Source: Terriglobales bacterium
GTDB lineage: Bacteria > Acidobacteriota > Terriglobia > Terriglobales > Acidobacteriaceae
Direction: 5' to 3'
NCBI GenBank assembly: GCA_025936825.1
Contig: JAICSO010000010.1
Location: 144,257-181,236, forward strand
Length of the DNA stretch: 36,980 nucleotides
Below are positions 17,191 to 35,816 of this stretch, piece by piece. Each line of letters opens with the position of its first letter. Positions within the stretch are counted from its first letter, which is position 1. The notes beneath the pieces are model-generated. The model did no database searches. It was not told the origin of the DNA and was given only the letters and a program-made list of their open reading frames with translations. The position numbers and the translations under genes are program-made.

Positions 17191-17253
17191 GTTCCGAGTT
17201 TCCAGTTTCGAGTTCAACGTCACGCTTGAAACTTGAAACTAGAAACTCGGAAC
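17191..17253. repeat. Inverted repeat A built of 7-bp words
   Basis: The left arm (17191-17218) and the right arm (17224-17253) pair over about 28 bp with a few mismatches; GTTCCGAGTTTC (17191-17202) is matched perfectly by GAAACTCGGAAC (17242-17253). Within each arm the sequence runs in 7-bp steps: GAGTTTC then CAGTTTC on the left, and TAGTTTC then AAGTTTC in the right arm read in reverse complement. It lies between the thiolase start and the 13-codon unit. Confidence 0.85.
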
Positions 17254-17342
17254 TTTACCGCACAACAACTCCAGGATCGCTTTCGCATCCTTCAGTGACC
17301 TTCGTACCACGACCTCGACCAACTTCATGCTTCATTTTTTGC

Positions 17343-17371
17343 TTGACTTCACATTTCAATGACTCTATACA
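17343..17371 (+). promoter_or_regulatory. Sigma-70 type promoter of the 13-codon gene
   Basis: TTGACT (17343-17348), a 17-base spacer, and TATACA (17366-17371). This is the best-formed housekeeping promoter seen in the window. The predicted start is near 17378, giving a leader of about 59 bases. Confidence 0.6.
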
Positions 17372-17436
17372 TTCAGACAGTTGCAACTGAAGACCGTTGC
17401 ATGCATCCATGAACAATGGAAGGGAGAATAGTTAAC

Positions 17437-17478
17437 ATGGCAACCAAAAAGAAAGCTGCAAAGAAAAAGAAACACTAG
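17437..17478 (+). CDS. 13-residue lysine-rich peptide
   Basis: The ORF reads MATKKKAAKKKKH and ends with TAG. It has AGGGAG at 17421-17426, 10 bases before the ATG, a promoter upstream and a strong terminator 23 bases after the stop. The unit is too short for gene callers. Eight of 13 residues are Lys, with two adjacent Ala, like fragments of the lysine-rich tails of bacterial histone-H1-like proteins. It might bind nucleic acid or polyanions, or translation may simply be regulatory for an sRNA; both are guesses. The complete set of expression signals is what makes it more than a chance ORF. Confidence 0.5.
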   Translation: MATKKKAAKKKKH

Positions 17479-17501
17479 TTGGCAATGCAGCAAAAGACAA
17501 A

Positions 17502-17530
17502 GGGGACGCGAAAGCGTCCCCTAAGTTTTT
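17502..17530 (+). terminator. Strong intrinsic terminator of the 13-codon unit
   Basis: GGGGACGC (17502-17509), GAAA tetraloop (17510-17513), GCGTCCCC (17514-17521), then TAAG and TTTTT ending at 17530. The 8-bp stem is perfect. It ends 12 bases from the stop of the convergent helicase gene, for which the same stem could also act, though without a T run on that strand. Confidence 0.92.
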
Positions 17531-17542
17531 GTACGAGAGTGC

Positions 17543-20500
17543 TCAGTTGACCTGTTCCACAGCAATCGCAATCTCGGGAACGCGCTTTTCGGTTTTCGGG
17601 CAAATGCCCCGGTAGGCGCAGGAATTGCAGTGATAACCAATCTTGGGGTCGAACTTGCCTTCCGCGATTTTCACCGCGATCTTCTCCACTTCGATCCGCG
17701 CCTCTTCCAATTGAATTGCACTTCGGACGGTACTGATCAGCGTGTTCCCATCCAGGTTATGAAACTCCAACCGTTCGGGAATGTAGCCCCACTTCTCGCT
17801 AGCCGCGAGGGCATACAACGAAAGCTGTAGGCTCTCGTCAGCGTCTTCCTGCGACTTCGGCTTGCCGGTTTTGTAATCCACAATGACAACGCGGCCATCT
17901 CCGGCGCGGTCCATGCGATCGATCCGGCCTACTAGAGTGGTCGCTCCGATCTTGATGTTGAAGTATTCCTCCGTGTGAAGGACCTCGGTGTGACTTTCGT
18001 TGGCGGCGAGGAACTCCTTCAACTGCGCAATTCCCTGCTGCTCGTACAAATCATGCTGGTATGGATCGGCAATCGCCTCGGAGCGGAGATCGTCGCGGAA
18101 CAGCTGAAGAAGCTCTGGCTCGGTCTTGGCACGGCCCAGCTTAATGGAATCGTAGTAGGTGCGCAGGACGCGGTGCATCGAAGCCCCATACTGCAGTGCA
18201 GCCGAAACGTCGCCGGGGATTCTCCAGTCGCGATCCAGCTTGAACCGTAGCGGGCAGAGTTTGTAGTTGTCGATGGCGCTCGCGCTCAAGGTACTTGCGA
18301 GATCCGATGCCGGCGGCATTCCCACCCACTCTGAGAGACGCGACGCGGGTGTAAGGACCTCTTCTTCGGCGAAGATCGCGGTTTGGAATTCCCTGCAATT
18401 ACGCTCCCGCAGCACCGGCTTGAGTTCCCGCGCCTTCAGCAGCTCGCGCAAATATCCCGGAGGCGTCTTGTCCTTCTCACCACGTCCAAAGGGCGCGTAG
18501 ATGGTCAGAGTGTCGCGGGCGCGGGTCATCGCCACATAGAAAAGACGACGCTCCTCGTGCTCGCAGAGAGTCTTGTCGTCGAAGTCGGAGAACGAAGTGG
18601 AGTTGCGAAGTTCGCGAGGGAAATCGATGAGGCTCTCGCGGTAGGCTGCGGGGAAACTTGGCTTAGTCGCCCGAAGAACGAAGACGTGCTCGTATTCCAG
18701 GCCCTTAGCGCCGTGGACGGTCATCAGCTTAACCGAATTTTCTTCTTCGGTCATGGCCAGCGGCACCGTGCCGCGCGCCTCGCGGAAGTATTCGAGGTAC
18801 TCCAGGAACTCGGTGGGACTGCCGCTCTCAGTCAAAGGGAATTCTTGCCACTTCTGCGCAAATTCCAGGAAGGCATTCACCGCAGAATTTCGCGGCACCT
18901 GGAACTGGCGCGCAAGCGACATCAGGGCTGAGTTCGCCTTCAGTCCTGAAGTAGAGGCCCGGGCCTTGTCGATTGAGCCAAGCACCTCGGGGCCACCGGG
19001 AATTATCGGCAACACACCGAGCACTCCCGCATTCGAATCGCGAGGCAGCGACTTTAGCGCGCTGCGCAGCGCGTTCGGATCGACGGTGAACTGGCGCAAG
19101 GCGACGACACGAAGCAGTGACGCGCTGTCCCCAGGCATGAATACGGCGGAGAGGCAGGCGAGCAGGTCGCGCACCTCGGGCGTGTCCAGCACGTCCATGG
19201 CTTCGATCGAGAACGGAACGTTGTTGCGGGCCAGTTCATTGGCCACCTCGTCGCGGTGAGTGTGGATACGATACAGAATCGCAATATCCTTCCATTGACA
19301 TCGCGAGCGCTTGCGGCGGTCGAGAAGCGTTGTGACCAGGTCAGTGGCTTCCATGAATGCGCTGGTGACCAGCACGGCCTCCACGAGGGCGCGCTTGGAG
19401 GCTAGCTCACGCTCCTGCTCGTCTCTTGCGGAAAGCAGCGGCTCCCGGCGATATGGAGCACCGGATTGCGACGATATCTCGGGATTTTTGTCGATCACTG
19501 CATAAGCCGACTTGAGGATCGGCGTGGTCGATCGCCGGTTGCGAGTCAGGGAAACCAGTTTTGCATCCGGAAACCGCTGCAGGAATAAATCGAATGCTTC
19601 GCTCGAAGCACCACGGAAGCGGTAGATGCCCTGGTCGGGATCGCCCACGGCGAAGATGTTCTGAGTCTCTGAATTGCCGCCTGCAATCTTGCCTAAGACT
19701 TCAATCTGCGCGAAGTTGGCGTCCTGAAATTCATCGACGAGGATGAACTTCGCCCTTCCCCTAGCTTTCGCGAGCACCTCAGGGTTGTTCGCCAACAGAT
19801 CATTCGCGCCGAGAATCATGTGGCTGAACGTGCCGAGATTCCGCTCGCGAAGCATTCGTTCCACCGTCTCGAAGACGAAAGCAATCTCGCGACAACGCCC
19901 GAGTGCTTCTTCGTCGCTGATTTCGTCAATGTCTTTGGATTTCGTGACCCTCGGAATTGGCAGTTCGCCCTTTTCCAGTCGGCAAACGTAGTTGCGGTAG
20001 GCCTCCGGGGTGACCAGTTCGTCGTGGCAACGGCGGATGAAATCCAGCAGATCATCCAGGAACTTGGAGACATTTGCCGCGCGAACGAAGTGGTTCAGCT
20101 TCAGTTCGCGCAAGTTCTTGCGCAAGAAGATCCACAGTTGCTTGTCATCGAGTACGCCGAATTTTCGGTCGGCGGCGATGAGTAGTTCGTTGCAGTATGC
20201 GTGAAAGGTACAAACCTGCAGACCTTGGACTTCCCGCTTTCCTAGTTCCGCACCAAGGCGGTCGCGCATCTGGGCGGCAGCGTTGTCGGTATAAGTAAGG
20301 GCAATGATCTCGTCGGGACGTGCGTGGCCGTCGCGAATGAGGCTGGCTATGCGCCGGATGAGAACCGTTGTTTTGCCGGTCCCGGCGCCCGCCACGACCA
20401 GCATGGGCCCATGCACATGCTCGATTGCCTGCTGTTGTTGAGGATCAGGAAGGATGTGTGGCTTAGAATTCACCTGGTGAGGACCACTAAGCAGGAGCAT
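17543..20500 (-). CDS. Single-chain UvrD/Rep-type helicase with C-terminal Fe-S PD-(D/E)XK nuclease
   Basis: 985 residues. SF1A helicase motifs are complete: Q-motif region PDPQQQQAIEH, Walker A VVAGAGTGKTT (Lys near 42), ALTYTDNAAAQM, Walker B FILVDEFQDAN (near 255), GDPDQGIYRFRGA, VKLMTVHGAKGLEYEHVFV and RLFYVAMTRARDTL. The C-terminal third is a RecB/AddB-type nuclease: GRIDRMD..VVIVDYKTGK (Asp near 875). Four cysteines fit an iron-sulfur staple: one in YKLCPLRF (near 748), and CNSCAYRGIC (Cx2Cx5C, near 955). It probably processes DNA ends in recombination repair, like one subunit of AddAB or AdnAB. No partner gene is adjacent. The ATG at 20500 lacks a ribosome site; a GTG ten codons later is an alternative start. 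Confidence 0.9.
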   Translation of the reverse strand: MLLLSGPHQVNSKPHILPDPQQQQAIEHVHGPMLVVAGAGTGKTTVLIRRIASLIRDGHARPDEIIALTYTDNAAAQMRDRLGAELGKREVQGLQVCTFHAYCNELLIAADRKFGVLDDKQLWIFLRKNLRELKLNHFVRAANVSKFLDDLLDFIRRCHDELVTPEAYRNYVCRLEKGELPIPRVTKSKDIDEISDEEALGRCREIAFVFETVERMLRERNLGTFSHMILGANDLLANNPEVLAKARGRAKFILVDEFQDANFAQIEVLGKIAGGNSETQNIFAVGDPDQGIYRFRGASSEAFDLFLQRFPDAKLVSLTRNRRSTTPILKSAYAVIDKNPEISSQSGAPYRREPLLSARDEQERELASKRALVEAVLVTSAFMEATDLVTTLLDRRKRSRCQWKDIAILYRIHTHRDEVANELARNNVPFSIEAMDVLDTPEVRDLLACLSAVFMPGDSASLLRVVALRQFTVDPNALRSALKSLPRDSNAGVLGVLPIIPGGPEVLGSIDKARASTSGLKANSALMSLARQFQVPRNSAVNAFLEFAQKWQEFPLTESGSPTEFLEYLEYFREARGTVPLAMTEEENSVKLMTVHGAKGLEYEHVFVLRATKPSFPAAYRESLIDFPRELRNSTSFSDFDDKTLCEHEERRLFYVAMTRARDTLTIYAPFGRGEKDKTPPGYLRELLKARELKPVLRERNCREFQTAIFAEEEVLTPASRLSEWVGMPPASDLASTLSASAIDNYKLCPLRFKLDRDWRIPGDVSAALQYGASMHRVLRTYYDSIKLGRAKTEPELLQLFRDDLRSEAIADPYQHDLYEQQGIAQLKEFLAANESHTEVLHTEEYFNIKIGATTLVGRIDRMDRAGDGRVVIVDYKTGKPKSQEDADESLQLSLYALAASEKWGYIPERLEFHNLDGNTLISTVRSAIQLEEARIEVEKIAVKIAEGKFDPKIGYHCNSCAYRGICPKTEKRVPEIAIAVEQVN

Positions 20501-20526
20501 ACCAGACCAGGGCTGAGGAAATACTA

Positions 20527-20961
20527 ATGAAACTCCGGACGCTGAAAGTGATCCTAGCTCTACTTTCGTTAATCTGCATTCTCCTTAGCTGGAAATTGAC
20601 AATGGCCTTAGGCGGAACGGAATTTTCCGGCGGCAGGATTACAGGCCCTCTCTATAGCATGTCCGAATTCGCATTGCTCCTTTTCACGATTTCATTGATT
20701 CTCGTGATCCGATTGCCACGAGCAAGTGCGGCCTTTGTCAGCATTGCAGCGTTGCTTTGCATTCCTCTCAGCTTCTTACTCCTTGCGCCGGGACCGTTCA
20801 GAAGGATTACAGGAGAGGAGTGGACCGTTCCACTACAGTCTAACTTCGTCCTCAGTTTGTGGAACGTGGGATGGGGATTCGCTCTCGCAGCATGCCTTGT
20901 GGTTTCGATTGCAATCCTATTTCAGCCGCGAAGCGGCGAACGAATAGAACCCAGGGCGTAG
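20527..20961 (+). CDS. Four-helix membrane protein of unknown function
   Basis: 144 residues with four hydrophobic segments: about 6-26 (LKVILALLSLICILLSW), 45-65 (SEFALLLFTISLILVIRL), 68-90 (SAAFVSIAALLCIPLSFLLLA) and 115-135 (NVGWGFALAACLVVSIAILF). Short polar loops and a basic, acidic C-terminal tail follow. No family is recognised. GAGGA (20515-20519) lies 7 bases before the ATG. It diverges from the helicase gene 26 bases away, so the two promoters must overlap, and it is convergent with the monooxygenase-fold gene (8-base gap). Confidence 0.7.
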   Translation: MKLRTLKVILALLSLICILLSWKLTMALGGTEFSGGRITGPLYSMSEFALLLFTISLILVIRLPRASAAFVSIAALLCIPLSFLLLAPGPFRRITGEEWTVPLQSNFVLSLWNVGWGFALAACLVVSIAILFQPRSGERIEPRA

Positions 20962-20969
20962 CCGCTTCC

Positions 20970-21326
20970 TCAGCCAAGCACCACACGGCGCCTGAAGGCT
21001 TTACGGTGGCTCATCTCCAACTGGTGAGTCGAGACGATTTCGTAATGCGCGGACTTCGCGTCGTAATGAGCCAGGTACTTGCGTCGTTCTTCCGGGATCA
21101 CAGCGGTTTCGTAATCCTCTCCGGCGACCGCACGAATGGATTCAATGGAATCAAAGAGCATGATCGTTGTGAACTCGATCTCGTTCCCGGCAACTCGCCG
21201 CAACAGGTAACTGCCGATATAACCTTTTGCTTTGCTGATACCGGGTAGTAGTTCCGGTTTCAGCATGGCCTCGTACGCGTCTGCATGTTCAGGCTTGGTA
21301 TAACCGTGCCAAACTCTTGCGATCAT
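20970..21326 (-). CDS. Antibiotic-biosynthesis-monooxygenase-like (ABM/dimeric ferredoxin-like) protein
   Basis: 118 residues. The N-terminus MIARVWHGYTKPEHADAYEAML is typical of the small ABM/EthD-like fold, with the repeating strand-helix pattern (GSYLLRRVAGNEIEFTTIMLFDSIESIRAVAGEDYETAVIPEE). Proteins of this fold dimerise; some are cofactor-free oxygenases and many have unknown substrates. This one is close to uncharacterised ABM proteins and no catalytic residue can be assigned. GGAGG lies 4 bases before the ATG. It follows rsmE by 48 bases on the same strand and may be co-transcribed. Confidence 0.75.
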   Translation of the reverse strand: MIARVWHGYTKPEHADAYEAMLKPELLPGISKAKGYIGSYLLRRVAGNEIEFTTIMLFDSIESIRAVAGEDYETAVIPEERRKYLAHYDAKSAHYEIVSTHQLEMSHRKAFRRRVVLG

Positions 21327-21374
21327 TGTGCCTCCTCCATCACTGGTGGGCCGGAATCACCGGATATCTGATCC

Positions 21375-22079
21375 TCACAGCATAGATGCCGCGACGGCGA
21401 CCGCCGCGATCACAGCGGTTTCAGCCCGCAAGATCGTTGGACCAAGCGATGCGGATTTCCATCCCGCGCTGGCGAAAGCAGCCAACTCCTGTTCTTTCCA
21501 ACCGCCTTCGGGACCGAAGGCAAGGGTCAGAGATTCCCCCGGGATGATTGCATCTCTTAACGGAATTTCCTGCTCCACTTCGGAAAGGACAACGCGACTG
21601 CCGTCGGCCACTCCGGCGACGAAGCCTTTGAACTTGATTGGATTTGCGATCTCCGGCGGCGAAGTTCGCCGCGATTGCTCCGAAGCCTGCTTGACGATGC
21701 GCCTCCAGCGTTCAACGCGCTTTCCAGCCGCCGAGGCAAGATGAGACTCGGTCCGGCCAGCAATCAAAGGCACAATCCGCACGACGCCCAGTTCCGTGCA
21801 CTTCTCGATCGCCCATTCCATGCGATCGAACTTGAAGATGGAAATGGCGACCGAGACAGGCAGCGGCACAGATGCGGCAACTGGATCTCCCAAATCGAAC
21901 TCGACCCGATCCGGCGAAATCGTCGCAATCCGGCCTCGGTGAACATTTCCATTCACCGATATCTCAAATTCCTGTCCGATCTGTGCGCGCAAAACCTGCG
22001 CAAGATGCCGGGCGTGATCGCCGACGAGCATCGCGCGATTCGCGGAGACTTCGTCAGCGATCCAGCGGCGGCGGGTCAT
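21375..22079 (-). CDS. rsmE: 16S rRNA (uracil-1498-N3)-methyltransferase
   Basis: 234 residues. RsmE methylates U1498 of 16S rRNA with S-adenosylmethionine. Recognised by the N-terminal PUA-like part (HARHLAQVLRAQIGQEFEI), FKFDRMEWAIEKCTELGVVRIVPL, the QSRRTSPPEI segment, and the SPOUT knot motifs LTLAFGPEGGW and SLGPTILRAETA. It follows the hrcA-grpE-dnaJ cluster, a common neighbour order. Inverted repeat B sits in the 82-base gap between dnaJ and this gene, so it may be a separate transcript or a read-through. Confidence 0.93.
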   Translation of the reverse strand: MTRRRWIADEVSANRAMLVGDHARHLAQVLRAQIGQEFEISVNGNVHRGRIATISPDRVEFDLGDPVAASVPLPVSVAISIFKFDRMEWAIEKCTELGVVRIVPLIAGRTESHLASAAGKRVERWRRIVKQASEQSRRTSPPEIANPIKFKGFVAGVADGSRVVLSEVEQEIPLRDAIIPGESLTLAFGPEGGWKEQELAAFASAGWKSASLGPTILRAETAVIAAVAVAASML

Positions 22080-22090
22080 GGAGTTGCCAA

Positions 22091-22161
22091 TAGCTAGTTG
22101 CTAGTTTGTAGCGAAATGGGCAGTCGTTTCTGGCTACTAACAACTAACTACTAGCAACTGG
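22091..22161. repeat. Inverted repeat B built of 7-bp words
   Basis: The left arm is 22091-22112 and the right arm 22132-22161. AGTTGCTAGT (22096-22105) pairs perfectly with ACTAGCAACT (22150-22159). Words step by 7 bp: CTAGTTG, CTAGTTT on the left; CTAGTAG, TTAGTTG, TTAGTAG in the right arm read in reverse complement. It lies directly after the dnaJ stop and before rsmE. Confidence 0.82.
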
Positions 22162-23301
22162 TCACAGTTCATTGAACATCTCTTTCACTTTGCCCAGGAG
22201 CGTACGCCGCTGCGGCTTGTTCTCGACGGGTGTGGTCCCTTGCAATTCCTGCAGCAACTCGCGCTGGCGCTTATTGAGCTTGGTCGGCGTCTGCACACGG
22301 ACTTCGACAAACAGATCGCCCTTTCCATGCCCATTCAGCACCGGCACGCCCTTGTTCCGCAGCTTTAGCACTGCGCCGGACTGCGTGCCCTCGGGGATTT
22401 TCAACATCTGCTCTCCTTCGAGGGTCGGGACTTGAATCTCCGTGCCCAGGGCAGCCTGGGTAAAGGAAATCGGAACTACGCAATGCAGATCAGTTCCCTC
22501 GCGCTCAAAGAAGGGGTGATCGTTCACATGCAGTACGACATAAAGGTCCCCTGCAGGGCCGCCCTGCACACCTGCCTCGCCAAGTCCGCTGAAACGAATG
22601 CGGGTTTCTTCCTCGACGCCGGCGGGGATCTTCGCCTCGACCGTCTTCTGCTGAATGATGCGCGCTTCACCTTTGCATTTCGGGCACGGATCGCTCACCA
22701 CCGTACCAGCGCCCTGGCATGCTGGGCATGTGCGGGCAATGCTGAAGAATCCCTGCTGATATCGAACTTGCCCGCGTCCTCCGCAAGTGCGGCAGGTGGT
22801 CGGAGCTTTGCCGTTTGCGCTGCCTGAGCCTTTGCAGGAATCGCATTGCTCAAAACGGCGGTAGGAAATCTTCTTCTCCGTTCCGAAGACTGCTTCCTCA
22901 AATTCGATGGTGATGTCTTCGCGCAAATCGGCGCCGCGTTGGGCACGTGTACGGCGGCCTCCGCGACCGCCTCCGCCAAAGATGTCGCTGAACCCGAAGA
23001 ACTCGCCGAAGATGTCGTTGAAGTCCTGGAAAACGCTGGCATCAAAGCCGCCACCAGCAGCCGCGCCCCCTACGCCCGCATGCCCGAACCGGTCATACAT
23101 GCTTCGTTTTTCGGCGTCGGCCAGGATGGCGTAAGCCTCGCTACATTCCTTGAACTTTTCTTCCGCATCCGGATTATTCGGATTGCGGTCGGGATGGAAC
23201 TGCAGCGCCAGCTTGCGGTACGCGCTCTTGATTTCCTGCTCGCTCGCGCCCCTCTGGACGCCGAGCACCTCGTAATAATCTCGTTTTACGTTGCTAGGCA
23301 G
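22162..23301 (-). CDS. dnaJ: Chaperone DnaJ (probable CTG start)
   Basis: 379 residues from a CTG at 23301-23299; a GTG at 23268 would cut off the first J-domain residues ([10 protein letters not shown]). The longer form is supported by GAGGG 7 bases before the CTG and by the in-frame KRDYYE text that all DnaJ proteins carry; no ATG, GTG or TTG exists between the upstream stop and 23268. Domains: J-domain with HPD (QFHPDRN), Gly/Phe region ([22 protein letters not shown]), four CxxCxGxG-type zinc repeats ([32 protein letters not shown]), and the C-terminal substrate domains. It stimulates DnaK ATPase. It follows grpE by 19 bases; dnaK is not in the window. Confidence 0.9.
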
Positions 23302-23320
23302 AGTTTAACCCTCGCGAAAA

Positions 23321-23899
23321 TTAGTGTTTGCCGTTACGCGCCACGCGCACCATGGCCGGACGTAGCAGCCGATCCTTCAATTTGTAACCACGCTGTAGCT
23401 CATCAATGACTTCGTTGTCCTTCGCGTCTTCCGTGTCGACCATCTCAATGGCTTCGTGAAAACGCGGATCGAACTGCTGGCCCTTGGCCTTGACTGGCTG
23501 CACTCCAATCTTGGTCAAAGCATCGAGCAGTTGCTTGTGAATCAGTTCAACGCCCAGGTGAAACTCTGACTTCTCAGGCGACGATTGCAGCGCGCGGTCG
23601 AAGCTGTCCATGACGGGAATCAAAGTCTTTACCGTGTCGGTCAGAGCGTAATCGCGATAATCCTGCTGCTCACGTTGCGCGCGCTTGCGCGCGTTGTCGA
23701 ATTCCGCCTGCATTCGAGCCATACGGTCGACCAGCAGGTCGCGCTCAGCGCGGAGCTTTTCGACTTCAGACACCCTTTCGCCCTGGGCCTGCTCCGTTGT
23801 CGGGCTCGGCTGGTCCTCGCTCCCATCCGATGGTGGAAGCTCGTGTTCTACATCCATCTCTTGCTCTTGATACTCAGTTTTTCCGTTTGTTCTCGCCAT
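23321..23899 (-). CDS. grpE: Nucleotide exchange factor GrpE
   Basis: 192 residues. GrpE releases ADP from DnaK. The acidic, disordered N-terminus (about 1-45) leads into the long dimerising coiled coil (VEKLRAERDLLVDRMARMQAEFDNARKRAQREQQD), then the family segment LIPVMDSFDRAL, then FDPRFHEAIEMVDT and the C-terminal beta domain with LQRGYKLKDRLLRPAMVRVA. The ATG lies 2 bases after the hrcA stop, so the genes are co-translated from one mRNA. Confidence 0.95.
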   Translation of the reverse strand: MARTNGKTEYQEQEMDVEHELPPSDGSEDQPSPTTEQAQGERVSEVEKLRAERDLLVDRMARMQAEFDNARKRAQREQQDYRDYALTDTVKTLIPVMDSFDRALQSSPEKSEFHLGVELIHKQLLDALTKIGVQPVKAKGQQFDPRFHEAIEMVDTEDAKDNEVIDELQRGYKLKDRLLRPAMVRVARNGKH

Positions 23900-23901
23900 G
23901 A

Positions 23902-26062: not shown

Positions 26063-26146
26063 GAGATCACCTGGGAGGAAGAGTCCAACTATCGATTATA
26101 AGTGCAGACCTGAGAGCCCGCCGGTCCGGTTTGGCGCCAAGGTTAG

Positions 26147-26218
26147 CCGTGAGCTATGAGCAGTGAGCTTGAGAGCAGGGAGGCCCATCACGGCTCATAG
26201 CTCACCGCTCATCGCTGC
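26147..26218. repeat. Inverted repeat C built of 7-bp words
   Basis: GTGAGCTATGAGC (26149-26161) pairs perfectly with GCTCATAGCTCAC (26193-26205). The arms extend further with mismatches, from about 26147 to 26218. Words step by 7 bp: GTGAGCT, ATGAGCA, GTGAGCT on the left; ATGAGCG, GTGAGCT, ATGAGCC in the right arm read in reverse complement. It lies in the divergent gap between the Mrp and TPR-protein genes, so it is not a terminator for either. Confidence 0.88.
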
Positions 26219-26256
26219 GCGCAGCGTGTTACGATCATCCCATCGGCGGCTCGCTC

Positions 26257-29297: not shown

Positions 29298-29320
29298 TGG
29301 GCCGGACCTCCTTTCTAGTA

Positions 29321-29340: not shown

Positions 29341-29357
29341 CATCGCAAACCAAAAAA

Positions 29358-29984
29358 TCAGGCGCGCATGGACTCGAGATAATCGATCATTCGTCTCTTT
29401 CCTGACTTCAACAGCTTGGGATCCTGCGAGTTCTTAGCCAGGGAAATGTAGCCTTCGTACATAGCGATCACAAACGTCGCTTCGTCGTCGGGATCCAGGT
29501 CTTTTCTGAGCATTTTTTCCGCCTGAGCTCGCCGAAATGCACCGGCCATGGCACCGTGCCACTCACTCAATATCTTCGCTAATCGCTTACGGAAGCCTTC
29601 ATCGAGCGGCGACATCTCCTGCGCCAGATTGTTGAATGGACAACCACCCCGCATCTCAGCTACTTCGGTACGCGTCGATTGGACGATGTGAATCAATGTA
29701 TCGATCGGATTGCCTTTCTGCAGCGGAATGTGCCACTTTTGCCTCGTCATCTCCGCTATGACTTCTTCGATGATCGCGTGCCCTAATGCTTCCTTGTTCT
29801 CGAAGTGATAATAGAGCGCACCCTTCGTGACCCCTGCCCTTTCCAGAACAGCATCCAGATCGGCGCTCTGGTACCCGCGCTCATAAACTTCACGAAAGCC
29901 GGCATCAAGGAGTTTCCGCCGGGTCCGCTCGGGATCGCGAAGTGATGCCGATCTCCGAAGCTTCGATCTCGCCGTCGCTAACAT
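29358..29984 (-). CDS. TetR/AcrR-family repressor
   Basis: 208 residues from the ATG at 29984; longer in-frame starts exist but would begin inside the promoter. The N-terminal helix-turn-helix is RTRRKLLDAGFREVYERGYQSADLDAVLERAGVTKGALYYHFENKEAL (about 20-67). The C-terminal ligand domain carries GGCPFNNLAQEMSP, a Cys-containing motif common in one TetR subgroup. A perfect TTGACA -35 at 30019-30014 and CATACT -10 at 29997-29992 put the transcription start at the ATG, so the message is probably leaderless. Operator 2 covers the -10 and the start codon, so it should repress itself; operator 1 would repress the CPFC and DUF899 genes. The ligand is unknown. Confidence 0.9.
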   Translation of the reverse strand: MLATARSKLRRSASLRDPERTRRKLLDAGFREVYERGYQSADLDAVLERAGVTKGALYYHFENKEALGHAIIEEVIAEMTRQKWHIPLQKGNPIDTLIHIVQSTRTEVAEMRGGCPFNNLAQEMSPLDEGFRKRLAKILSEWHGAMAGAFRRAQAEKMLRKDLDPDDEATFVIAMYEGYISLAKNSQDPKLLKSGKRRMIDYLESMRA

Positions 29985-30001
29985 ACCAACTAGTATGTAT
30001 G
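29982..30001. promoter_or_regulatory. TetR operator 2 (over the tetR start codon)
   Basis: CATACCAACTAGTATGTATG. Taking one more base on each side gives ACATAC-nn-ACTAGT-nn-GTATGT, an exact palindrome apart from the n positions. It covers the -10 element and the first codon of tetR. Confidence 0.85.
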
Positions 30002-30019
30002 TAAATTGCCAAATGTCAA
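29992..30019 (-). promoter_or_regulatory. tetR promoter
   Basis: Minus strand: TTGACA (30019-30014, perfect consensus), 16-base spacer, CATACT (29997-29992). The gap from the -10 to the ATG is 7 bases. Confidence 0.65.
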
Positions 30020-30060
30020 GTGGAAAAAGAGGGTACAACGAAATTCCTGTGCTGGATTCC

Positions 30061-31596
30061 CTACTCTGCCGCTTCGGACTTCTTCTCCGGCCGAAGTAGA
30101 GGGAACAGGATCACGTCCCGGATGGATTGCGAGTTGGTCAGGAGCATTATGAGCCGGTCGATTCCGACGCCCACGCCTCCCGCTGGCGGCATCCCGTACG
30201 AGAGCGCCCGAATGTAGTCCTCATCCATCTGGTGGGCTTCTTCGTCGCCGCGCTCCCGCTCCTTTAACTGGCCTTCGAACCGGCGGCGCTGGTCCACGGG
30301 GTCATTAAGCTCGCTGAACCCGTTGGAAATCTCCATTTGGCCGATGTAAATTTCCCAGCGCTCGGTCCAATCCGGCTCGTCTGCTTTTTGCTTGGAGAGA
30401 GGTGACACCGCAGTGGGAAATTCATAGATGATCGTCGGCTGGGTAAGGTGCTCCTCCGCTACAGCCTCAAAGAGTCCCGAGATGGTCTTCCCTGCCGGCG
30501 CGCTTGGGTCAAAGGCCATGTGCGAGTGCCCTGAGTTGAAGCGTTGGACAACTGCCTTAACCGAATCGTGTGTGGCGAAATCAGCCATCGTCGGTTTTGC
30601 ACCCGCTCTCTCGGGCCAGTACTGAATGATTGCCTCGCGCATGGTCAGGCGGCGCCAGTTGCCCTCGGACCAGTCGATTTCACCATCGCCCCACTTCGTC
30701 TTTGTTCCGCCGGTCACGTCGATGGCCGCCTGCGTAATCAACTTCTGCGTGAGGTCCATCACGCCGCGATAGTCGGTGTAGGCCTGATAAAACTCCAGCA
30801 TCGTGAATTCGGGGTTGTGCCGCGTCGAGATGCCCTCGTTGCGGAAGTTGCGATTGATCTCGTAGACGCGATCGAATCCGCCAACCGTGAGCCGCTTCAA
30901 ATAAAGCTCGGGTGCGATGCGCAGGTACAAATCGATGTCAAGGGTATTGTGGTGCGTGATGAACGGTTTCGCCACCGCGCCCCCCGCAATCGGCTGCATC
31001 ATCGGGGTCTCAACTTCGACGAAGCCTTGCGCGTCGAGAAAACGCCGCATGGACTGCACCAGCTTGGCGCGCTTCAGGAAAACGTCGCGCACCTCGGGAT
31101 TCATGAACAGATCCACGTAGCGCTGACGATAACGGAGTTCAACGTCAGTCAGCCCGTGCCACTTCTCTGGAAGTGGAAGGAGGTCTTTGGATAGGAAGGT
31201 GATGTCCTCCACGTGAACCGAGAGTTCGCCGGTCCGCGTGCGGAAGAGATAACCGCTCACGCCAACGTGGTCGCCGAGGTCAAGCAGTTTGTACAGTTCG
31301 AATGCTTTCTCGCCGACCGCATCCTTTTTCACGTAGATCTGGAGACGGCCGCCGTTCTGCTGCAGGTGCGCGAATCCCGCCTTCCCCATGAGGCGGATCG
31401 CCATAATGCGACCTGCAACTCGCACATTGACGCGAGAAGTTTCTAGCTCCTCGCCAGTTTTCGACGAATAGTCGGCCAGAATCTGGGGAATCGTGTGGGT
31501 GAATTCATATTGGGTGGGATAGGCGCGCTGCCCGAGCCCTTCAATCTGCTTCAGCTTTTCCAGGCGGAGTTGATATATGTTTTCGTCGAGAGCCAA
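30061..31596 (-). CDS. lysS: Lysyl-tRNA synthetase, class II
   Basis: 511 residues, the usual length. It charges tRNA-Lys. The N-terminal OB-fold anticodon-binding domain covers about 55-150 ([24 protein letters not shown]). Class II motif 1 lies in [17 protein letters not shown], motif 2 in [33 protein letters not shown], and motif 3 in [24 protein letters not shown]. The start is TTG at 31596, with AGG 7 bases upstream (AAAGGTCAGATC). Inverted repeat D and a divergent gene lie upstream. It ends 76 bases before tetR. Confidence 0.96.
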
Positions 31597-31632
31597 GATC
31601 TGACCTTTGCGTTAAGTAAACAGCGATTATAG

Positions 31633-31757
31633 AGGATTGAATCTTGAGTTATCGGGCATTGAATGATTGAAACCCGGCCTATTTTGCCTGACGCCTTCAG
31701 CGAATCAGCTAATGACACAATCATTCAATGTCTCAATGATTCAACGCTTCAATTCTT
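31633..31757. repeat. Inverted repeat D built of 8-bp words
   Basis: ATTGAATGATTG (31658-31669) pairs perfectly with CAATCATTCAAT (31718-31729). Further words on both sides (GATTGAA near 31635; AATGATTCAA 31735-31744; CTTCAATT 31748-31755) let alternative pairings form. Read in reverse complement the right arm steps by 8 bp (ATTGAAGC, GTTGAATC, ATTGAGAC, ATTGAATG). It occupies the divergent gap between lysS and the PH-like gene. Confidence 0.82.
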
Positions 31758-31782
31758 CTGTATCATTTGACCGGAGTTTCTC

Positions 31783-32136
31783 ATGGCCACCAATGTTGCA
31801 ACTGCGGGCTCAACCCAAAGTTACACCTTCTCCGCCAGCCGCTGGACGCGCGGCAACCACATTTTCCCGACCCGAATCGTTGTCACGCCGCTACACGTGA
31901 GCCGGGTAAAGTCGCGGATGTTCGGGGCCACGGAGGAGAGCATCGCGATTTCCCAAGTCGCGTCGGTGGAGATTAAGACGGGAATGATCTGGTCGGAGAT
32001 TCGTATCGACTCGACTGGGGGCGCGGAACCCATCACCAGTCATGGGCACAGCAAACGTGACGCTATTCGCATCCGCGAGCTGATTGAAAGCTATCAGGCC
32101 GTCCAAAGCGGAGGCCGAGTTACTGGCCAAAAATAA
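31783..32136 (+). CDS. Small PH-like domain protein of unknown function
   Basis: 117 residues, soluble, no signal peptide. The strand pattern (NHIFPTRIVVTPLHVSRVKSR..., ESIAISQVASVEIKTGMIWSEIRIDSTGG, then helix SKRDAIRIRELIESYQAVQ) matches bacterial pleckstrin-homology-like proteins, which often have IPLxxIxxVE and a final helix. The match is to architecture rather than a known function. GGAG (31773-31776) lies 6 bases before the ATG. Its last 17 bases overlap the end of the convergent YfiR-TonB gene. Confidence 0.65.
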   Translation: MATNVATAGSTQSYTFSASRWTRGNHIFPTRIVVTPLHVSRVKSRMFGATEESIAISQVASVEIKTGMIWSEIRIDSTGGAEPITSHGHSKRDAIRIRELIESYQAVQSGGRVTGQK

Positions 32137-32944
32137 GATGCACAAGTTCCACGCTCTCTGCGGGACCCGAGCGATATTTCCAGGATCGTACGGCTTGCAC
32201 GGCCGCCTGCACGAGCACGGGATGTCCTCCCAGCACGCGAACGTCCTTTACGCTGCCGCCTGCATCCACTGTCACCTGCAACTGAACCGCGCCGGTGATA
32301 TTCATCTGGCGGGCCAGATCGGGATATTTCGGCGGAATATTTGAGCGTACGGCGCGAGATCCTGAGTTCTGGACTCTCGTGCTGCCTGCATCGCTTTGCG
32401 CCATATTGAGGAAGCTGGTGTCGAAACGGATGTCGGCGCGATCGAGTGCAAGCGAATTCACCTCGAAGCGGACCTTACCGTCTTTCAGCACCAAGTTGAT
32501 CATTCCGCCATTCGTGAGGAAACTTGAATCCTCGCCGACGAGCAGCGTACTCGATTTTTTCACGCCACTGATCACGCCAGGAACGCGACTCTTTTCAGAG
32601 CCGCGAACAAAGAGCAACGTGCATGAGTCCGTCTCAGAAGGTGAACTGAGCGCCTTGGCTACCAGGCTGTGAGCATTGATCGATTTATTGCTCAGAGTAT
32701 TGCGCAGCATCGCGACAAAGTCATCGTCGCCGCCAAGCACGCAGAAGACAATCGGAGAGGTTGGCGTTGAAAACCCGTTGTCCGGCCACTCTGCCAACTT
32801 AGCGAAGTTGTACAGGTAAGCAGCCTTCACTTGGTACTCGCTGGCAGATTGGCCGCGGGCCGTGGGCGCAGCCAGAAGCAGCGACGCGGCAAGCACGAAG
32901 TAAATCGCGCCCAAACGTCTGCCGTTCGCAAGAGGAAGGACCAT
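32120..32944 (-). CDS. YfiR-family (DUF4154) protein fused to a TonB C-terminal domain
   Basis: 274 residues. Signal peptide about 1-32 (AASLLLAAPTARGQ). Residues 33-185 are YfiR/DUF4154: ASEYQVKAAYLYNFAKLAEWP, FCVLGGDDDF, SCTLLFVRGSEKS, LLVGEDSSFLTNGGMINLVLKDGKVRFEVN. A linker leads to a TonB C-terminal domain (about 200-274): IPPKYPDLARQMNITGAVQLQVTVDAGGSVKDVRVLGGHPVLVQAAVQAVRSWKY. YfiR controls a diguanylate cyclase in Pseudomonas; TonB C-terminal domains contact outer-membrane receptors. The gene starts 3 bases after the receptor stop, so receptor and fusion are one operon. The join of periplasmic sensor and TonB tip is unusual. It has no membrane anchor beyond the signal peptide. Confidence 0.87.
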   Translation of the reverse strand: MVLPLANGRRLGAIYFVLAASLLLAAPTARGQSASEYQVKAAYLYNFAKLAEWPDNGFSTPTSPIVFCVLGGDDDFVAMLRNTLSNKSINAHSLVAKALSSPSETDSCTLLFVRGSEKSRVPGVISGVKKSSTLLVGEDSSFLTNGGMINLVLKDGKVRFEVNSLALDRADIRFDTSFLNMAQSDAGSTRVQNSGSRAVRSNIPPKYPDLARQMNITGAVQLQVTVDAGGSVKDVRVLGGHPVLVQAAVQAVRSWKYRSGPAESVELVHLIFGQ

Positions 32945-32947
32945 CGC

Positions 32948-33343
32948 CTACTTCTTTCCGCGGCGCTCGCCGCCATGCTGCCAAATCAACGTGAATTCCG
33001 CGGACCGGCGCACTTGCCCGGCAACATTACCGAAGATCGTGTTGCGGGTCTCGATATGGCTCGGCGACTGCAGATTGCGTCCCCACACTCCAAACGTCCA
33101 CTGCGGAAGCAACTGCCACGTGCCTCCAAGGTCGAGGCGGTCGAACGAGGGCACGGATTGCAGAAGGACGGTGGGGTACTCAGCCAGACGCCCTAGTGGG
33201 ACGGCGCCATAGTGATAAAGCGAGCTCTCGAATTCCAGTCTATTGGTTGCCTGGAAGCGAGACTGAAGGTTGAAGAGGTGGCGCGGTGTCGCTTGCAGGG
33301 CATCAGGACTGCCGCGAGTTTCTGTGACCGCACCGGAAAGCAT
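32948..33343 (-). CDS. TonB-dependent receptor, C-terminal fragment
   Basis: Last part of the receptor, 131 residues from an internal ATG; homology in this frame extends back to about 33430 (LLLDYSYINGSRAQSHGAEVSVQWRPIERW). It contains beta-barrel strands (FNLQSRFQATNRLEFESSLYHYG, DRLDLGGTWQLLPQWTFGVWGRNL, SAEFTLIWQHG). It ends with basic residues rather than the usual aromatic residue. One base added to a GGG run near 33432-33434 would join it to the middle fragment. Not an independent gene. Confidence 0.75.
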   Translation of the reverse strand: MLSGAVTETRGSPDALQATPRHLFNLQSRFQATNRLEFESSLYHYGAVPLGRLAEYPTVLLQSVPSFDRLDLGGTWQLLPQWTFGVWGRNLQSPSHIETRNTIFGNVAGQVRRSAEFTLIWQHGGERRGKK

Positions 33344-33408
33344 CCACCGTTCTATAGGACGCCACTGGACTGATACTTCTGCGCCGTGACTCTGCGCTCG
33401 GCTCCCGT

Positions 33409-33807
33409 TTATGTAGCTGTAATCCAGGAGGAGCCCTGACGGTTGCTGTACGCGTTGTAGTACGTCGAGAGGTCAAATGCGAACGAATTGGTTTGGTAGC
33501 GATAGCCAGCCTCGTACGCATGCAGGCGCTCTGCGTGAAGGTCGTTACTCCCGTAAATTTCCAGGAGGACGGGAAGGCCACCCGGTCCAACATTAGGAAC
33601 GATCGTCTGCAGAACGACGTCGCTTTCTCCGCGTGAGGGCACACGAAGTGCCCGAGAAATACTTGCCCAGAAGGCATGCTGCTTGCGAGGAGTCCAGACC
33701 GCACGAACTTGCGGCTGGTACTCCCCTCCGGTGTATCCGTTGTGTTCTATTTTGGTTCCGGCAATCAGGCGCAGTCGGTCAGGGATGAGTGCGAAGCCAT
33801 ACTGCAA
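33409..33807 (-). CDS. TonB-dependent receptor, middle fragment
   Basis: 132 residues in a second frame. It holds central barrel strands: MQYGFALIPDRLRLIAGTKIEHNGYTGGEYQPQVRAVWTPRKQHAFWASISRALRVPSRGE, which is the classical R-PS receptor strand, then ERLHAYEAGYRYQT...FAFDLSTYYNAYSN. It joins the N-terminal fragment if a T is added to the TTTT run near 33811 (GGCTTTTTGCAGTATGGC would read GFLQYG). It has no own start signals. Confidence 0.75.
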   Translation of the reverse strand: MQYGFALIPDRLRLIAGTKIEHNGYTGGEYQPQVRAVWTPRKQHAFWASISRALRVPSRGESDVVLQTIVPNVGPGGLPVLLEIYGSNDLHAERLHAYEAGYRYQTNSFAFDLSTYYNAYSNRQGSSWITAT

Positions 33808-34877
33808 AAGCCGCTTATGACGGTATTACGGCGGCGAAGCCGCGTGAACATGAACGAGTTGGCAACCAGGTCATCTCCAGTTGTGCTGAATGCCCCTCCC
33901 CAAACAATCGAATTGCGAGCGTTCCATTCAAAGTCGTGCTGGAACTCGACATCGCACGTATTCCGAGAGTCTGCGGGCATGCTGAAGCGCGAATACCAGT
34001 CACAGTAGGCGAGCGTGTCGGTGCTGGACCGTGCAGAGAACTGGTGCTTCCAACGTAGAAGGACATTGTTCCCTTTCAGGAGCGTCGTGCTCGGCGTCGG
34101 GATAATGAACTGCGTGCTACGTACGCGTCCATCGTAAGCGCCGCCCTCCAGAGTGATCGCGTTTTTGTCGTTGGCTGCCCAGTCGAACCGCAGGCCTGCC
34201 TGAGGCAACATCAGGCGATTCGGGATGGGCGCTTCTCCGGGACCGCGGAGCGGCTCCCAATAAGATGCCCTCCCATATGCGTAGTAGCCCAGCTTTGAAC
34301 CTAGCATGCCACCCTGGCGAACGGTGGTGGTGTAGCCCGCGTCTTTATCCAGAGTCGCGGAGATCAGTGTTCCCTGCGCGTCGCTGGCTTGCTTGGTCAC
34401 GATGTTGATCACGCCATTGACCGCGTTCGCTCCCCAGAGCGTTCCACCCGGGCCACGGATAATTTCGATCCTTTCGATGTTCTCGACAGGAATATCCAAC
34501 GCATCCCAATAAACCCCGCCGTACAGAGGCGTGTACACGCTGCGTCCATCGACCAGGACCAGCATCTTGTTGTTGTAGAAATCGCTGTAACCACGGGCGC
34601 TGATCTGCCATATGTGGGCATCGGTCTGTGCGACATAGAGGCCGGGAACCGTGCGCAACGCCTCTGGCAGATTACGGAAGCCAGCGTCCACAATCGCCTC
34701 TCCGGTCAGCACGTAGATAGCTGCAGGGGCAGTGGAGAGATTCTCCGATTTTTTCGACGCCGAGGTGACCTTGACCTGGCCCAGTTGTTCCAAATTTAGT
34801 TCACTGAGGTCAGATTGGGCGAAGCACAGGCCAGCAAGGACGAGCGGGAGCAGCAACAACCGTACGAGAATGGACAT
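33765..34877 (-). CDS. TonB-dependent receptor, N-terminal fragment (frameshifted)
   Basis: First 370 residues; about 350 are true receptor sequence before the frame is lost near ISGF. Signal peptide (MSILVRLLLLPLVLAGLCFAQ), a short N-terminal segment DLSELNLEQLGQVKVTSASKKSEN typical of receptors without a carboxypeptidase-like domain, then the plug: APAAIYVLTGEAIVDAGFRNLPEALRTVPGLYV, ISARGYSDFYNNKMLVLVDGRSVYTPLYGGVYWD, and IERIEIIRGPGGTLWGANAVNGVINIVTK. GAGGGG lies about 8 bases before the ATG. With the two later fragments (to 32948) the product is about 643 residues. The partner YfiR-TonB fusion gene follows. The ligand is unknown. Confidence 0.87.
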   Translation of the reverse strand: MSILVRLLLLPLVLAGLCFAQSDLSELNLEQLGQVKVTSASKKSENLSTAPAAIYVLTGEAIVDAGFRNLPEALRTVPGLYVAQTDAHIWQISARGYSDFYNNKMLVLVDGRSVYTPLYGGVYWDALDIPVENIERIEIIRGPGGTLWGANAVNGVINIVTKQASDAQGTLISATLDKDAGYTTTVRQGGMLGSKLGYYAYGRASYWEPLRGPGEAPIPNRLMLPQAGLRFDWAANDKNAITLEGGAYDGRVRSTQFIIPTPSTTLLKGNNVLLRWKHQFSARSSTDTLAYCDWYSRFSMPADSRNTCDVEFQHDFEWNARNSIVWGGAFSTTGDDLVANSFMFTRLRRRNTVISGFCSMASHSSLTDCA

Positions 34878-34924
34878 GAATCAGCCCCTCTGCACAATTC
34901 GTCGGCGAAATTGAGGATTTCCTT

Positions 34925-34930
34925 TACGAT
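34925..34930 (+). promoter_or_regulatory. Candidate -10 element for the ATP synthase operon
   Basis: TACGAT ends 6 bases before the ATG at 34937, with no Shine-Dalgarno sequence between. No -35 recognised. Confidence 0.35.
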
Positions 34931-34936
34931 GAAGGC

Positions 34937-35155
34937 ATGGCGGACCCCAACCCGAAGGACAGGTCACCTTGGTCACAGGCGGGAAACTACGCGCAACTTG
35001 CTTTCATATTCCCCGCCGCAACCGTGATCGGCTGGCTCATCGGCGTCGGCCTCGACAAGTGGCTGCACACCACGTGGTTGTACATTGTGGGGCTGATCCT
35101 GGGGATCATCGCCGGATTCGTGGAATTGATACGGACGGTGTCAAAGAACCAGTGA
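34937..35155 (+). CDS. AtpI/AtpZ-type F-ATPase accessory protein
   Basis: 72 residues with two membrane helices (AQLAFIFPAATVIGWLIGVGLDKW, then WLYIVGLILGIIAGFVELIRTV). This is the ATPase_gene1/AtpZ pattern, including the G-x2-LD-KW turn between helices. Such proteins lie at the start of F-ATPase operons and help assemble the c ring or carry magnesium or calcium. It is the first gene of the operon here. No ribosome site; TACGAT ends 6 bases upstream. Confidence 0.85.
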   Translation: MADPNPKDRSPWSQAGNYAQLAFIFPAATVIGWLIGVGLDKWLHTTWLYIVGLILGIIAGFVELIRTVSKNQ

Positions 35156-35163
35156 ACGCCATT

Positions 35164-35303
35164 CACCGCCGAGCACGCCGAGATCGCAGAGAAACACCAA
35201 GATAGCAAAGAAGGCGACTTGCAAGAGTTGCGACTTGCGAGTCTTCATTATCTGCATTTCCGTTCTGCTCTTTTCCTCTGCGTTCTCGGCGGTCTCCGCA
35301 GTG
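35164..35303. repeat. Inverted repeat F built of 9-bp words
   Basis: The left arm (35164-35195) and the right arm (35271-35303) pair imperfectly: CGCCGAG and CGCAGAG occur in both. Words step by 9 bp on the left (CACGCCGAG, ATCGCAGAG) and in the right arm read in reverse complement. Between them lies a second small array of about 7 bp (AGTTGCG, ACTTGCG; 35216-35243). It sits between the two AtpI-like genes. Confidence 0.7.
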
Positions 35304-35325
35304 AAATGATCTCCAGTCTTCCGTT

Positions 35326-35331
35326 TAGAAT
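35326..35331 (+). promoter_or_regulatory. Candidate -10 element before the second AtpI-like gene
   Basis: TAGAAT ends 6 bases before the GTG at 35338, with no Shine-Dalgarno sequence. Confidence 0.3.
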
Positions 35332-35337
35332 CGTTTT

Positions 35338-35754
35338 GTGACTGACGCTGCCCCGGCCGAGAGCGACTTCCACATCCATGCACTCGATCGCATCAACAAA
35401 TTCATGCTCGTCCTGGGTGCGGCGGCGCTGATCACGGCGTTCACGATGTTCGGCTGGCGCACCGCCGTGGGATTCGCGGTGGGTGCCGCCGTTGCTTTCC
35501 TTAATTTTTACTGGTTGAAGAAGGTGGTTGCTGGGGTTGCGGCAGCCGCCGAGCGCACCGGACCTACCGTCTCCAGCCGTCGCGTGGTCCAGCGGTTTCT
35601 GCTCCGCTACTTTTTGATGGCCGTCGCTGCCTTTGTTATACTTACTGTTTCCCGCGACAGCCTCTATGGATTCTTTGCGGGGCTGTTTCTGCCCGTAGCG
35701 GCGATGTTGTGCGAGGCGGGGTACGAGACGTACAAAGTGATTAGTGGCTCGTGA
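35338..35754 (+). CDS. atpI: ATP synthase subunit I-like membrane protein
   Basis: 138 residues with four membrane helices (INKFMLVLGAAALITAFTMF; RTAVGFAVGAAVAFLNFYWL; FLLRYFLMAVAAFVILTVS; YGFFAGLFLPVAAMLCEAGY). The GAAVAFLNFYWLKKVV segment matches the ATP synthase I chain family, which helps c-ring assembly. The start is GTG at 35338 without a ribosome site. Its stop (35752-35754) lies inside inverted repeat E. With the upstream AtpZ-type gene it makes the usual two-protein accessory set. Confidence 0.82.
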   Translation: MTDAAPAESDFHIHALDRINKFMLVLGAAALITAFTMFGWRTAVGFAVGAAVAFLNFYWLKKVVAGVAAAAERTGPTVSSRRVVQRFLLRYFLMAVAAFVILTVSRDSLYGFFAGLFLPVAAMLCEAGYETYKVISGS

Positions 35755-35816
35755 GTAGTGGCTCGCCAAATCTGAGTTTTGCTAGCCACTAGCCACTGAT
35801 CACTAGCAACTTTTTT
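35737..35816 (+). repeat. Inverted repeat E built of 7-bp words, followed by T6
   Basis: The left arm is 35737-35764 and the right arm 35781-35810. Words step by 7 bp: GTGATTA, GTGGCTC, GTGAGTA, GTGGCTC on the left; GTGATCA, GTGGCTA, GTGGCTA in the right arm read in reverse complement. The right arm is followed by TTTTTT (35811-35816), so on the plus strand it has the form of an intrinsic terminator, placed directly before the atpB start codon. Confidence 0.85.

Follow-up and report, generated by a model that had tools for sequence, protein, structure and literature searches.

Degenerate tandem arrays of 7-nucleotide (nt) units have been reported from the intergenic DNA of several bacteria, separately, with one or a few words each and with word-specific explanations (the accounts here and below draw on parts of the reports cited). 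The GGGAATC heptamers of Xanthomonas (Rehm et al. 2015; PMC4692102) are degenerate, mostly intergenic, and discussed in terms of G-quadruplexes; they lie a mean of 28 nt from the upstream open reading frame, face each other as inverted pairs 70 times in one genome and 75 times in another, and usually keep their repeat type between two species while differing in length. The short tandemly repeated repetitive (STRR) sequences of cyanobacteria are 7-bp tandem units in gaps between genes, sometimes forming hairpins, with function unknown (PMC2670836; PMC4692102), and STRR hairpins of 7 bp are described as not unusual in filamentous forms (PMC2670836). In marine Beggiatoaceae, intergenic TAACTGA heptamers mostly have one orientation relative to start codons (MacGregor 2015; PMC4679880); 169 sets are direct arrays and one is inverted, most are upstream of starts, and the word is scattered over distant phyla, while related heptamers are rarely or never repeated there. 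The same report points to previous studies of polymerase slippage and of abundant heptanucleotide repeats. In a survey whose taxa included Acidobacteria, nearly every bacterial phylum had an excess of palindromes and inverted repeats; the account of them given there, in the parts available, contains no such word arrays (PMC4060949). Here we describe word arrays in a Terriglobales bacterium (Acidobacteriota), beginning with six intergenic inverted repeats, A to F, in a 36,980-nt stretch of its genome that we call the window (G000:C96:144257-181236; the genome, G000, is 6.54 Mb in 141 contigs).

The initial annotation had described the six as inverted repeats whose arms are runs of degenerate words, 7 bp long in A, B, C, and E, 8 bp in D, and 9 bp in F. 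All six were found where it placed them, with C reaching slightly past 26147-26218. Compared with dinucleotide shuffles, their stem scores exceeded 300 of 300 and their best lags 500 of 500, at lag 7 in A, B, C, and E, lag 8 in D, and lag 9 in F, in agreement with the word lengths.

Families of short-word arrays in the genome

The six repeats belong to several genome-wide families of short-word arrays, mainly of 7-mers and also of 8-, 9-, and 10-mers. Each word had been thought private to its locus; instead, the words are found at tens of loci, and other genera carry them as well. With up to 3 mismatches allowed and the reversed word as the control, the B word was found at 156 places against 15 for its control, the A word at 78 against 0, and the E word at 149 against 6. 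Inverted pairs within 250 bp numbered 20 for the D word, 12 for the F word, and 12 for the C word, as counts without a shuffled control in 1.63 Mb of G000. Additional recurrent words include TTAGCTN, GAGCNNT, CAGCCNT, CAGATTN, ATTGAATC, CGCAGAGNN, and CACGAAGG. That a design is shared, and not one dispersed sequence, is a part of the original description that the data support.

The 1.63 Mb comprise C140:200001-1000000, C34:1-400000, all of C45, C12:1-20000, and the window, and contain 882 gaps of 30-1500 bp; unless noted otherwise, the G000 results below refer to this sample. Gene starts and gaps were taken from a purpose-written dicodon gene caller, with no curated annotation. Stems were sought with a gapped search at a score threshold of at least 14, with one shuffle per gap as the control; an ungapped hairpin search overlooked most repeats. 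The threshold was reached in 169 of the 882 gaps and in 12 after shuffling, and a score of at least 18 in 102 gaps and in none after shuffling.

The arms of these stems are periodic. Over 174 stems, arm self-matching at lag 7 amounted to 36.2% of positions, compared to 26.9% after shuffling (z 23), which is the excess over shuffles by which the original proposal was to be judged. Pooled in the same way, the arms also showed an excess at lag 14 (z 18) and a weak one at lag 8 (z 6), and none at lags 9 and 10 (z -0.3 and -0.5). An individually significant lag was present in 114 of the 174 stems, against 8.7 expected: 59 at lag 7, 27 at lag 8, 12 at lag 10, 11 at lag 9, and 5 at others. When a stem was not required, the intergenic arrays numbered 107 at lag 7, 22 at lag 8, 5 at lag 9, and 1 at lag 10, with 49 more at lag 14 (the harmonic of 7), 1 at lag 12, 5 at lag 15, and zero at lags 4, 5, 6, 11, and 13. 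The lag-7 arrays were concentrated between genes (107 intergenic versus 13 coding), though only about 20% of the DNA is intergenic; 66 of the 107 had an inverted partner within 350 bp and 41 had none. Perfect CTAGTGG arrays stand at two contig ends (C12, positions 2-117; C45, positions 376346-376447 of 376449), which suggests longer arrays that broke the assembly, as expected of long recent arrays.

Word pairs were present in 82 of 568 tandem gaps, 10 of 136 convergent gaps, and 16 of 178 divergent gaps. For 83 tandem cases, the repeat begins a median of 5 nt past the upstream stop codon, a median of 34 nt separates its end from the next start, and in 67 of them it is nearer the stop than the next start.

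Facing orientation and interchangeable arms

Orientation is nearly fixed for the 7- and 8-mers. Ten 7-mer patterns gave 61 facing pairs and 1 back-to-back pair, in counts made per word pattern such that one pair may score under two similar words; ATTGAATC gave 19:1, CGCAGAG 11:1, and CGCGGAT 5:1. In a second genome, G008, the 7-mer patterns gave 22:2. When stems were assigned to families one by one, which left 81 of 202 unassigned, the 7- or 8-mer word was on the 5' arm in 68 versus 2 loci in G000 and 15 versus 1 in G008. A family-blind form of the rule, AG exceeding CT on the 5' arm, held in G000 in 47 versus 9 loci with lag-7 stems and 18 versus 3 with lag-8 stems; it was absent at lags 9-10 (12 versus 11) and from weak, mostly chance stems (172 versus 155). 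Two genomes of another family, G210 and G038, which were fetched afterwards and chosen for their richness in the A word, together followed the AG rule in 22 versus 2 lag-7 stems.

Summed over the four genomes, lag-7 stems obeyed the AG rule in tandem (63:11), convergent (10:1), and divergent (15:1) gaps. Stop codons were rejected as its cause, since divergent gaps follow it; because the rule holds in all gap types, it cannot be put down solely to stop codons or solely to avoidance of ribosome-binding motifs. A GT-over-AC form was followed in tandem gaps (61:10) and, less surely, in convergent gaps (9:2, p 0.065). A generally G/T-rich 5' arm was also rejected: G+T exceeded 0.5 in 43 of 59 G000 lag-7 arms, but G exceeded C in just 9 loci of G008 versus 17, so we claim the AG form alone as general, and for these genomes only. 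In partnerless arrays, the AG/GT/TT-rich strand reads away from the nearest gene in 28 of 39 cases, compared to 776 of 1431 random intergenic 35-mers. At least two gaps have different words at their two edges, both facing inward (C140 684820/684912 and C34 219127/219678). Exact AGTTTC triple arrays also occur in 77 stretches of IMG/VR contigs (L242-L318).

The two arms of a pair behave as separate draws from one word family. We compared each 5' arm with the 3' arms of other loci of its family, using 73 loci in 12 family-genome groups of at least four (arms of at most 60 nt with the word on the 5' arm, others being dropped). Pairing with the arm's own partner ranked 0.44 among these cross-locus pairings, where 0.50 means no difference, and was the best in 7 of the 73. 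Simulated true hairpins carrying 5-20% substitutions ranked 0.05-0.12 and were best in 58 to 40 of the 73, which shows that the test can tell true hairpins apart. When arms were re-dealt within families, the rank was 0.50 (standard deviation 0.04), and 0 of 20 re-deals reached 0.44. Permuting the words of the 3' arm lowered the mean stem score from 19.3 to 16.2 at lag 7, with p<0.05 in 7 of 59 loci, and from 22.1 to 18.3 at lag 8, significant in 3 of 27; at lags 9 and 10, significance was reached in 0 of 11 and 1 of 12. The loops are unrelated: z exceeded 3 in 3 of 164 within-family loop pairs, drawn from the 11 families in which three or more loops were 18 nt or longer (8 smaller families were left out).

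Since the arms behave as separate draws from one family, the inverted repeat arises mostly from two like arrays facing each other. The palindrome is mainly a pair of facing arrays of one word family and not a hairpin maintained by pairing or by template switching; the earlier idea that template switching keeps the arms alike does not agree with an own-arm rank of 0.44, given the ranks of the simulated hairpins.

Distribution, turnover, and origin

Of 199 genomes examined in the phylum, 48 have the A word, in a patchy distribution; in some of the 48 (e.g., G018, G051, G076, and G088) the reversed control was equal or higher. The counts of the A word were 72 and 89 in genus g5, 146 in G038, and 168 in G210, and it was absent from the ten genomes of genus g4, which is in the same family as G000. 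In G018 the reversed AGTTTC control is abundant (176 and 143), and there is apparently yet another heptamer there, CTTTGAN. The E word roughly tracks the A word within the family (28 in G143, 18 in G086, and 11 in G097, versus 0-2 in g4); in G134 it scored 37, nearly equal to its reversed control at 31. In 200 kb each, G210 had 61 stems in 113 gaps and G038 had 42 in 96, with a lag-7 peak; 16 and 10 of these, respectively, were lag-7 stems, and the remainder includes many non-word palindromes. G210 carries AGTCCAA and AGTGCTG/AGTACTG arrays, and AGTCCAA is found in G038 too. In contrast to these genomes, 100 kb of G062 (genus g4) had 1 stem in 44 gaps. Array-rich and array-poor lineages thus exist side by side. 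Of the plasmid searches, one gave no match and another gave five weak records. Loss of the hairpin nuclease SbcD was considered as a permissive cause and set aside, as it does not separate array-bearing from array-free genomes. TIGR00619 (SbcD) scored above its cut-off in 0 of 28 acidobacterial genomes, with weak matches in 5, compared to 8 of 14 controls (13 with any match), and those 28 may lack the usual hairpin nuclease or have a diverged form of it.

Between close species, words and copy number change while positions mostly stay. G008 and G009 are 82-94% identical in the probed flanks, and CAGCANT is abundant in both. A 311-kb sample of G008, non-random because it was picked from places listed for CAGCANT, had stems in 28 of 169 gaps versus 2 after shuffling. 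Probes from all 28 gaps led to 14 places in G009, one of which could not be aligned, leaving 13 gaps for comparison. A stem above the 95th shuffle percentile was kept in 12 of the 13, L229 being the exception; two of the 12 kept stems are not built of words, L230 and L225; the arms of L225 do not differ between the two species, and it may be coding DNA. Words drift and copies are gained or lost in the pairs L198/L221, L214/L220, and L201/L218, and with L225 excluded there were 138 one-sided stem changes. To the right of position 6695, L214 is 99-100% identical to L220 for several hundred base pairs, compared to about 88% on its left side, from either recent transfer or a chimeric contig of a metagenome-assembled genome (MAG).

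Two positions of the window were followed into congeners. In the gap between atpI and atpB, which holds repeat E, inspection by eye of six genomes gave TAGTGGC in G000, TTAGC and CCAACAG in G001, TTAGC/CAGCC in G007, a CACTGAC-type array on one side in G003, and none in G004 and G005. A stem search, which left out G001 and G004 because the upstream gene was uncalled, detected a stem in G000 and G007 and none in G003 and G005. The G000 loop core CAAATCTGAGT recurs in G001 (p 0.003) and nearly so in G004 (p 0.007), at values uncorrected for 15 pairs, and the loop seems older than the arms at this gap. Among six congeners, repeat D has a decayed match, seen by eye and below the stem threshold, in G003 only, and G002 carries another inverted repeat at the same position.

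We consider it probable that the repeats represent families of short-word arrays at gap edges, usually in facing pairs, shaped by slippage growth in place, ectopic spread of words, and an orientation constraint at the DNA level. Arrays would grow and shrink in place by slippage; a slippage-type origin was among the first suggestions, and the differences in copy number and words between close species support it as regards gain and loss of words. Words would spread among loci through ectopic copying of arrays, with word homology feeding recombination or repair, and their orientation would be fixed by something that acts on DNA at gap edges and not on folded RNA. The arrays would then be mainly a mutational product, tolerated where least harmful; any effect on the expression of neighboring genes would be incidental, and some lineages would have many arrays and others hardly any.

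Several observations weigh against this explanation. The small own-arm excess (0.44 versus 0.50) is real, although it comes partly from arm ends fitted to their own partner. Between G008 and G009, double changes that kept Watson-Crick pairing numbered 20 versus 11.8 after permutation, counted in both directions and with L225 excluded; this is little for arms said to evolve in concert, as the initial annotation had proposed, and it leaves room for weak selection on pairing. In ten loci of the same two genomes, loops had a mean identity of about 0.74 (shuffled, about 0.66) and arms about 0.80 (shuffled left arms, about 0.69); by these crude identities, which are near the shuffle baselines, loops are slightly more diverged than arms, unlike what arms younger than loops would give. 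The positions kept in 12 of 13 gaps could reflect function. Families of 9- and 10-mers depart from the orientation rule (facing to back-to-back, CGCAAAG 1:6, CACGAAG 5:4, and CACAGAG 8:4) and, with their longer defined arms, may represent something else. AGTTTC arrays in IMG/VR contigs, at 7 facing, 11 back-to-back, and 8 same-strand, argue against a universal rule, and the GT-over-AC form is not clear in divergent gaps (10:6, p 0.45). The causes given here for the orientation and for the spread of words between loci are proposals. That loops are not clearly slower to change in G008 and G009, and that the GT form fails in divergent gaps, slightly lowers our confidence in this explanation and slightly raises that in the mobile-unit and template-switching alternatives below.

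An unlikely alternative is that the repeats are non-autonomous mobile palindromes, copied as arm-loop-arm units with loops that have since decayed. Repetitive extragenic palindromic (REP) and REPIN elements, with their RAYT transposases, are likewise intergenic, inverted, and present in many copies with a variable spacer; to our knowledge they contain no word arrays. Families at many loci with one orientation, long conserved outer ends in some of them (e.g., AAAACCTTYACCACAGAGG), the presence of RAYT-kind Y1 transposases, and the slightly more diverged loops of G008 and G009 would all suit such elements. However, 161 of the 164 within-family loop pairs are unrelated, so that the conserved internal sequence of a miniature inverted-repeat transposable element is lacking in these families, though loop and arm divergence differ little between close species. 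Y1 transposase presence does not sort genomes with arrays from those without, and the four RAYT loci examined (5 of 8 Y1_Tnp hits) were flanked by different, non-word palindromes, with one word pair beside one RAYT gene; on this ground the REP/REPIN assignment was rejected. RAYT genes at G000:C140:994124, C65:90264, and C83:2080 (L232, L236, and L233) are flanked by palindromes of their own, CCCGGCAC... and GGGTGCCCCACCC..., a separate REP-like population that may make up some of the stems without word periodicity.

Quite improbable, in our estimate, are RNA hairpins selected at mRNA ends or in leaders as stabilizers, attenuators, or terminators, although the short distance past stop codons in tandem gaps and the persistence of positions between close species are what such hairpins would give. 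Stem mismatches on the transcribed strand were 112 G-T and 109 A-C; because an RNA-selected stem should tolerate G-U far more than A-C, this is no sign of selection on RNA, and it lends no support to the suggestion that the repeats act as mRNA-end structures. Of 83 tandem word pairs, 5 had TTTT in the 12 nt downstream and 3 had AAAA upstream, so the T-tract of an intrinsic terminator is generally missing. Word pairs are found in divergent gaps as well, own-arm pairing is barely above cross-locus pairing, and Rfam gave 0 matches in the window at the gathering score. Repeat E sits between atpI-like and atpB-like genes, where a strong terminator would cut the operon. The initial judgment that termination cannot explain all of the repeats therefore holds.

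We regard as a long shot, fitting the main observations yet purely hypothetical, a telomere-like biased end extension, in which both 3' ends of a break or stalled site in a gap would be extended by the same word. Fill-in and joining would leave two facing arrays around a remnant of the old gap. Such a process would jointly explain the near-fixed orientation, the shared words without in-register pairing, and the unique loops, and also the few facing pairs of different words, the lean of partnerless arrays, and the site-wise word differences among congeners.

Template switching that creates and maintains locus-specific quasi-palindromes, the mechanism first put forward, is very improbable and, for the families tested, largely refuted: word changes in both arms of some orthologous pairs (e.g., L198/L221 and L214/L220) and the small own-arm excess speak for it, whereas the arms are nearly interchangeable among loci, the words are not private, and word-permuted 3' arms pair nearly as well.

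The window repeats and their described relatives

Repeat A (17191-17253) consists of facing 7-mer arrays with the 5'-arm word AGTTTCN in a tandem gap, 53 bp from the start of a thiolase gene (15944-17137, minus strand). A terminator-like hairpin at 17501-17522, directly after the UvrD/PDDEXK gene, may be the ordinary terminator of this gap rather than repeat A; the terminator scan overall gave no more sites than shuffles. Repeat B (22091-22161; 7-mers, CTAGTTG) lies between a dnaJ-like gene (22162-23268, minus strand) and an rsmE-like gene (21375-22079, minus strand), starting directly at the dnaJ-like stop. Repeat C (26134-26220; 7-mers, GAGCNNT) is in a divergent gap, with an Mrp/NUBPL-like ATPase gene on one side and a gene with weak TPR matches on the other. 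Repeat D (31625-31764; 8-mers, ATTGAATC) is in the divergent gap upstream of a lysS-like gene (30061-31596, minus strand); its left end (31625-31632) overlaps a TATAAT-like hexamer on the minus strand upstream of lysS, and a similar TATAAT is present in congeners without repeat D.

Repeat F (35160-35308; 9-mers, CGC(A/C)GAGNN) had been assigned to a tandem gap, but the gene calls on either side (33765-34877, minus strand, and 35338-35754, plus strand) make the gap divergent. Its loop contains a separate small terminator-like hairpin (35216-35243). Repeat E (35737-35810; 7-mers, TAGTGGC) lies between the atpI-like gene (35338-35754), whose stop codon the array overlaps, and the atpB-like gene (35818-36576). 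Like the other four, B and E are built as facing arrays. The proteins flanking the repeats match thiolase, UvrD helicase with a PDDEXK nuclease domain, RNA methyltransferase, DnaJ, a NUBPL-type ATPase, class II tRNA synthetase (lysS-like), and the ATP synthase I and A chains. For one window protein, the best database matches were acidobacterial MAGs at no more than 58% identity, with 49-61% in congeners G001-G007.

The initial annotation knew of no formal description of such repeats in Acidobacteriota; our literature search, with subscription papers mostly beyond reach, likewise found no account of such arrays in the phylum, and a search for the exact word strings found none published. As degenerate 7-nt tandem units concentrated between genes, the arrays are of the intergenic heptamer simple sequence repeat or STRR kind, and the fixed orientation is the surprise. 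They resemble the cyanobacterial STRR, to which we liken them by the published descriptions, in being 7-nt tandem intergenic units, and differ in belonging to another phylum. With the Beggiatoaceae TAACTGA repeats they share an intergenic position and a preferred orientation (PMC4679880); unlike those, the arrays here are mostly facing and inverted and lie near stops.

The Xanthomonas heptamers, the closest counterpart that our literature search turned up, are similar in being degenerate intergenic 7-nt tandem units with facing inverted pairs near stop codons (PMC4692102). They represent one G-rich word, whereas G000 has many, the main ones without G-tracts, along with 8-, 9-, and 10-mers; the GGGAATC pattern itself gave 18 loose clusters and no pair in the 1.63 Mb. 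GGG tracts are absent from the recurrent G000 words, which in this differ from the Xanthomonas and Nostoc words for which G-quadruplexes come into question, so quadruplexes cannot be the general reason for such arrays, nor can any word-specific cause. Any model has to account for the orientation rule and for the interchangeable arms. The case also advises caution, in that inverted repeats of this sort should not be read as terminators or RNA elements. Where the earlier reports treat one or a few words each, about a dozen words in G000 share one layout and obey almost the same orientation rule, and the two genomes of another family repeat this partly with other words. Many words under one layout point to a general process, and the origin of bacterial 7-nt arrays thereby becomes testable.

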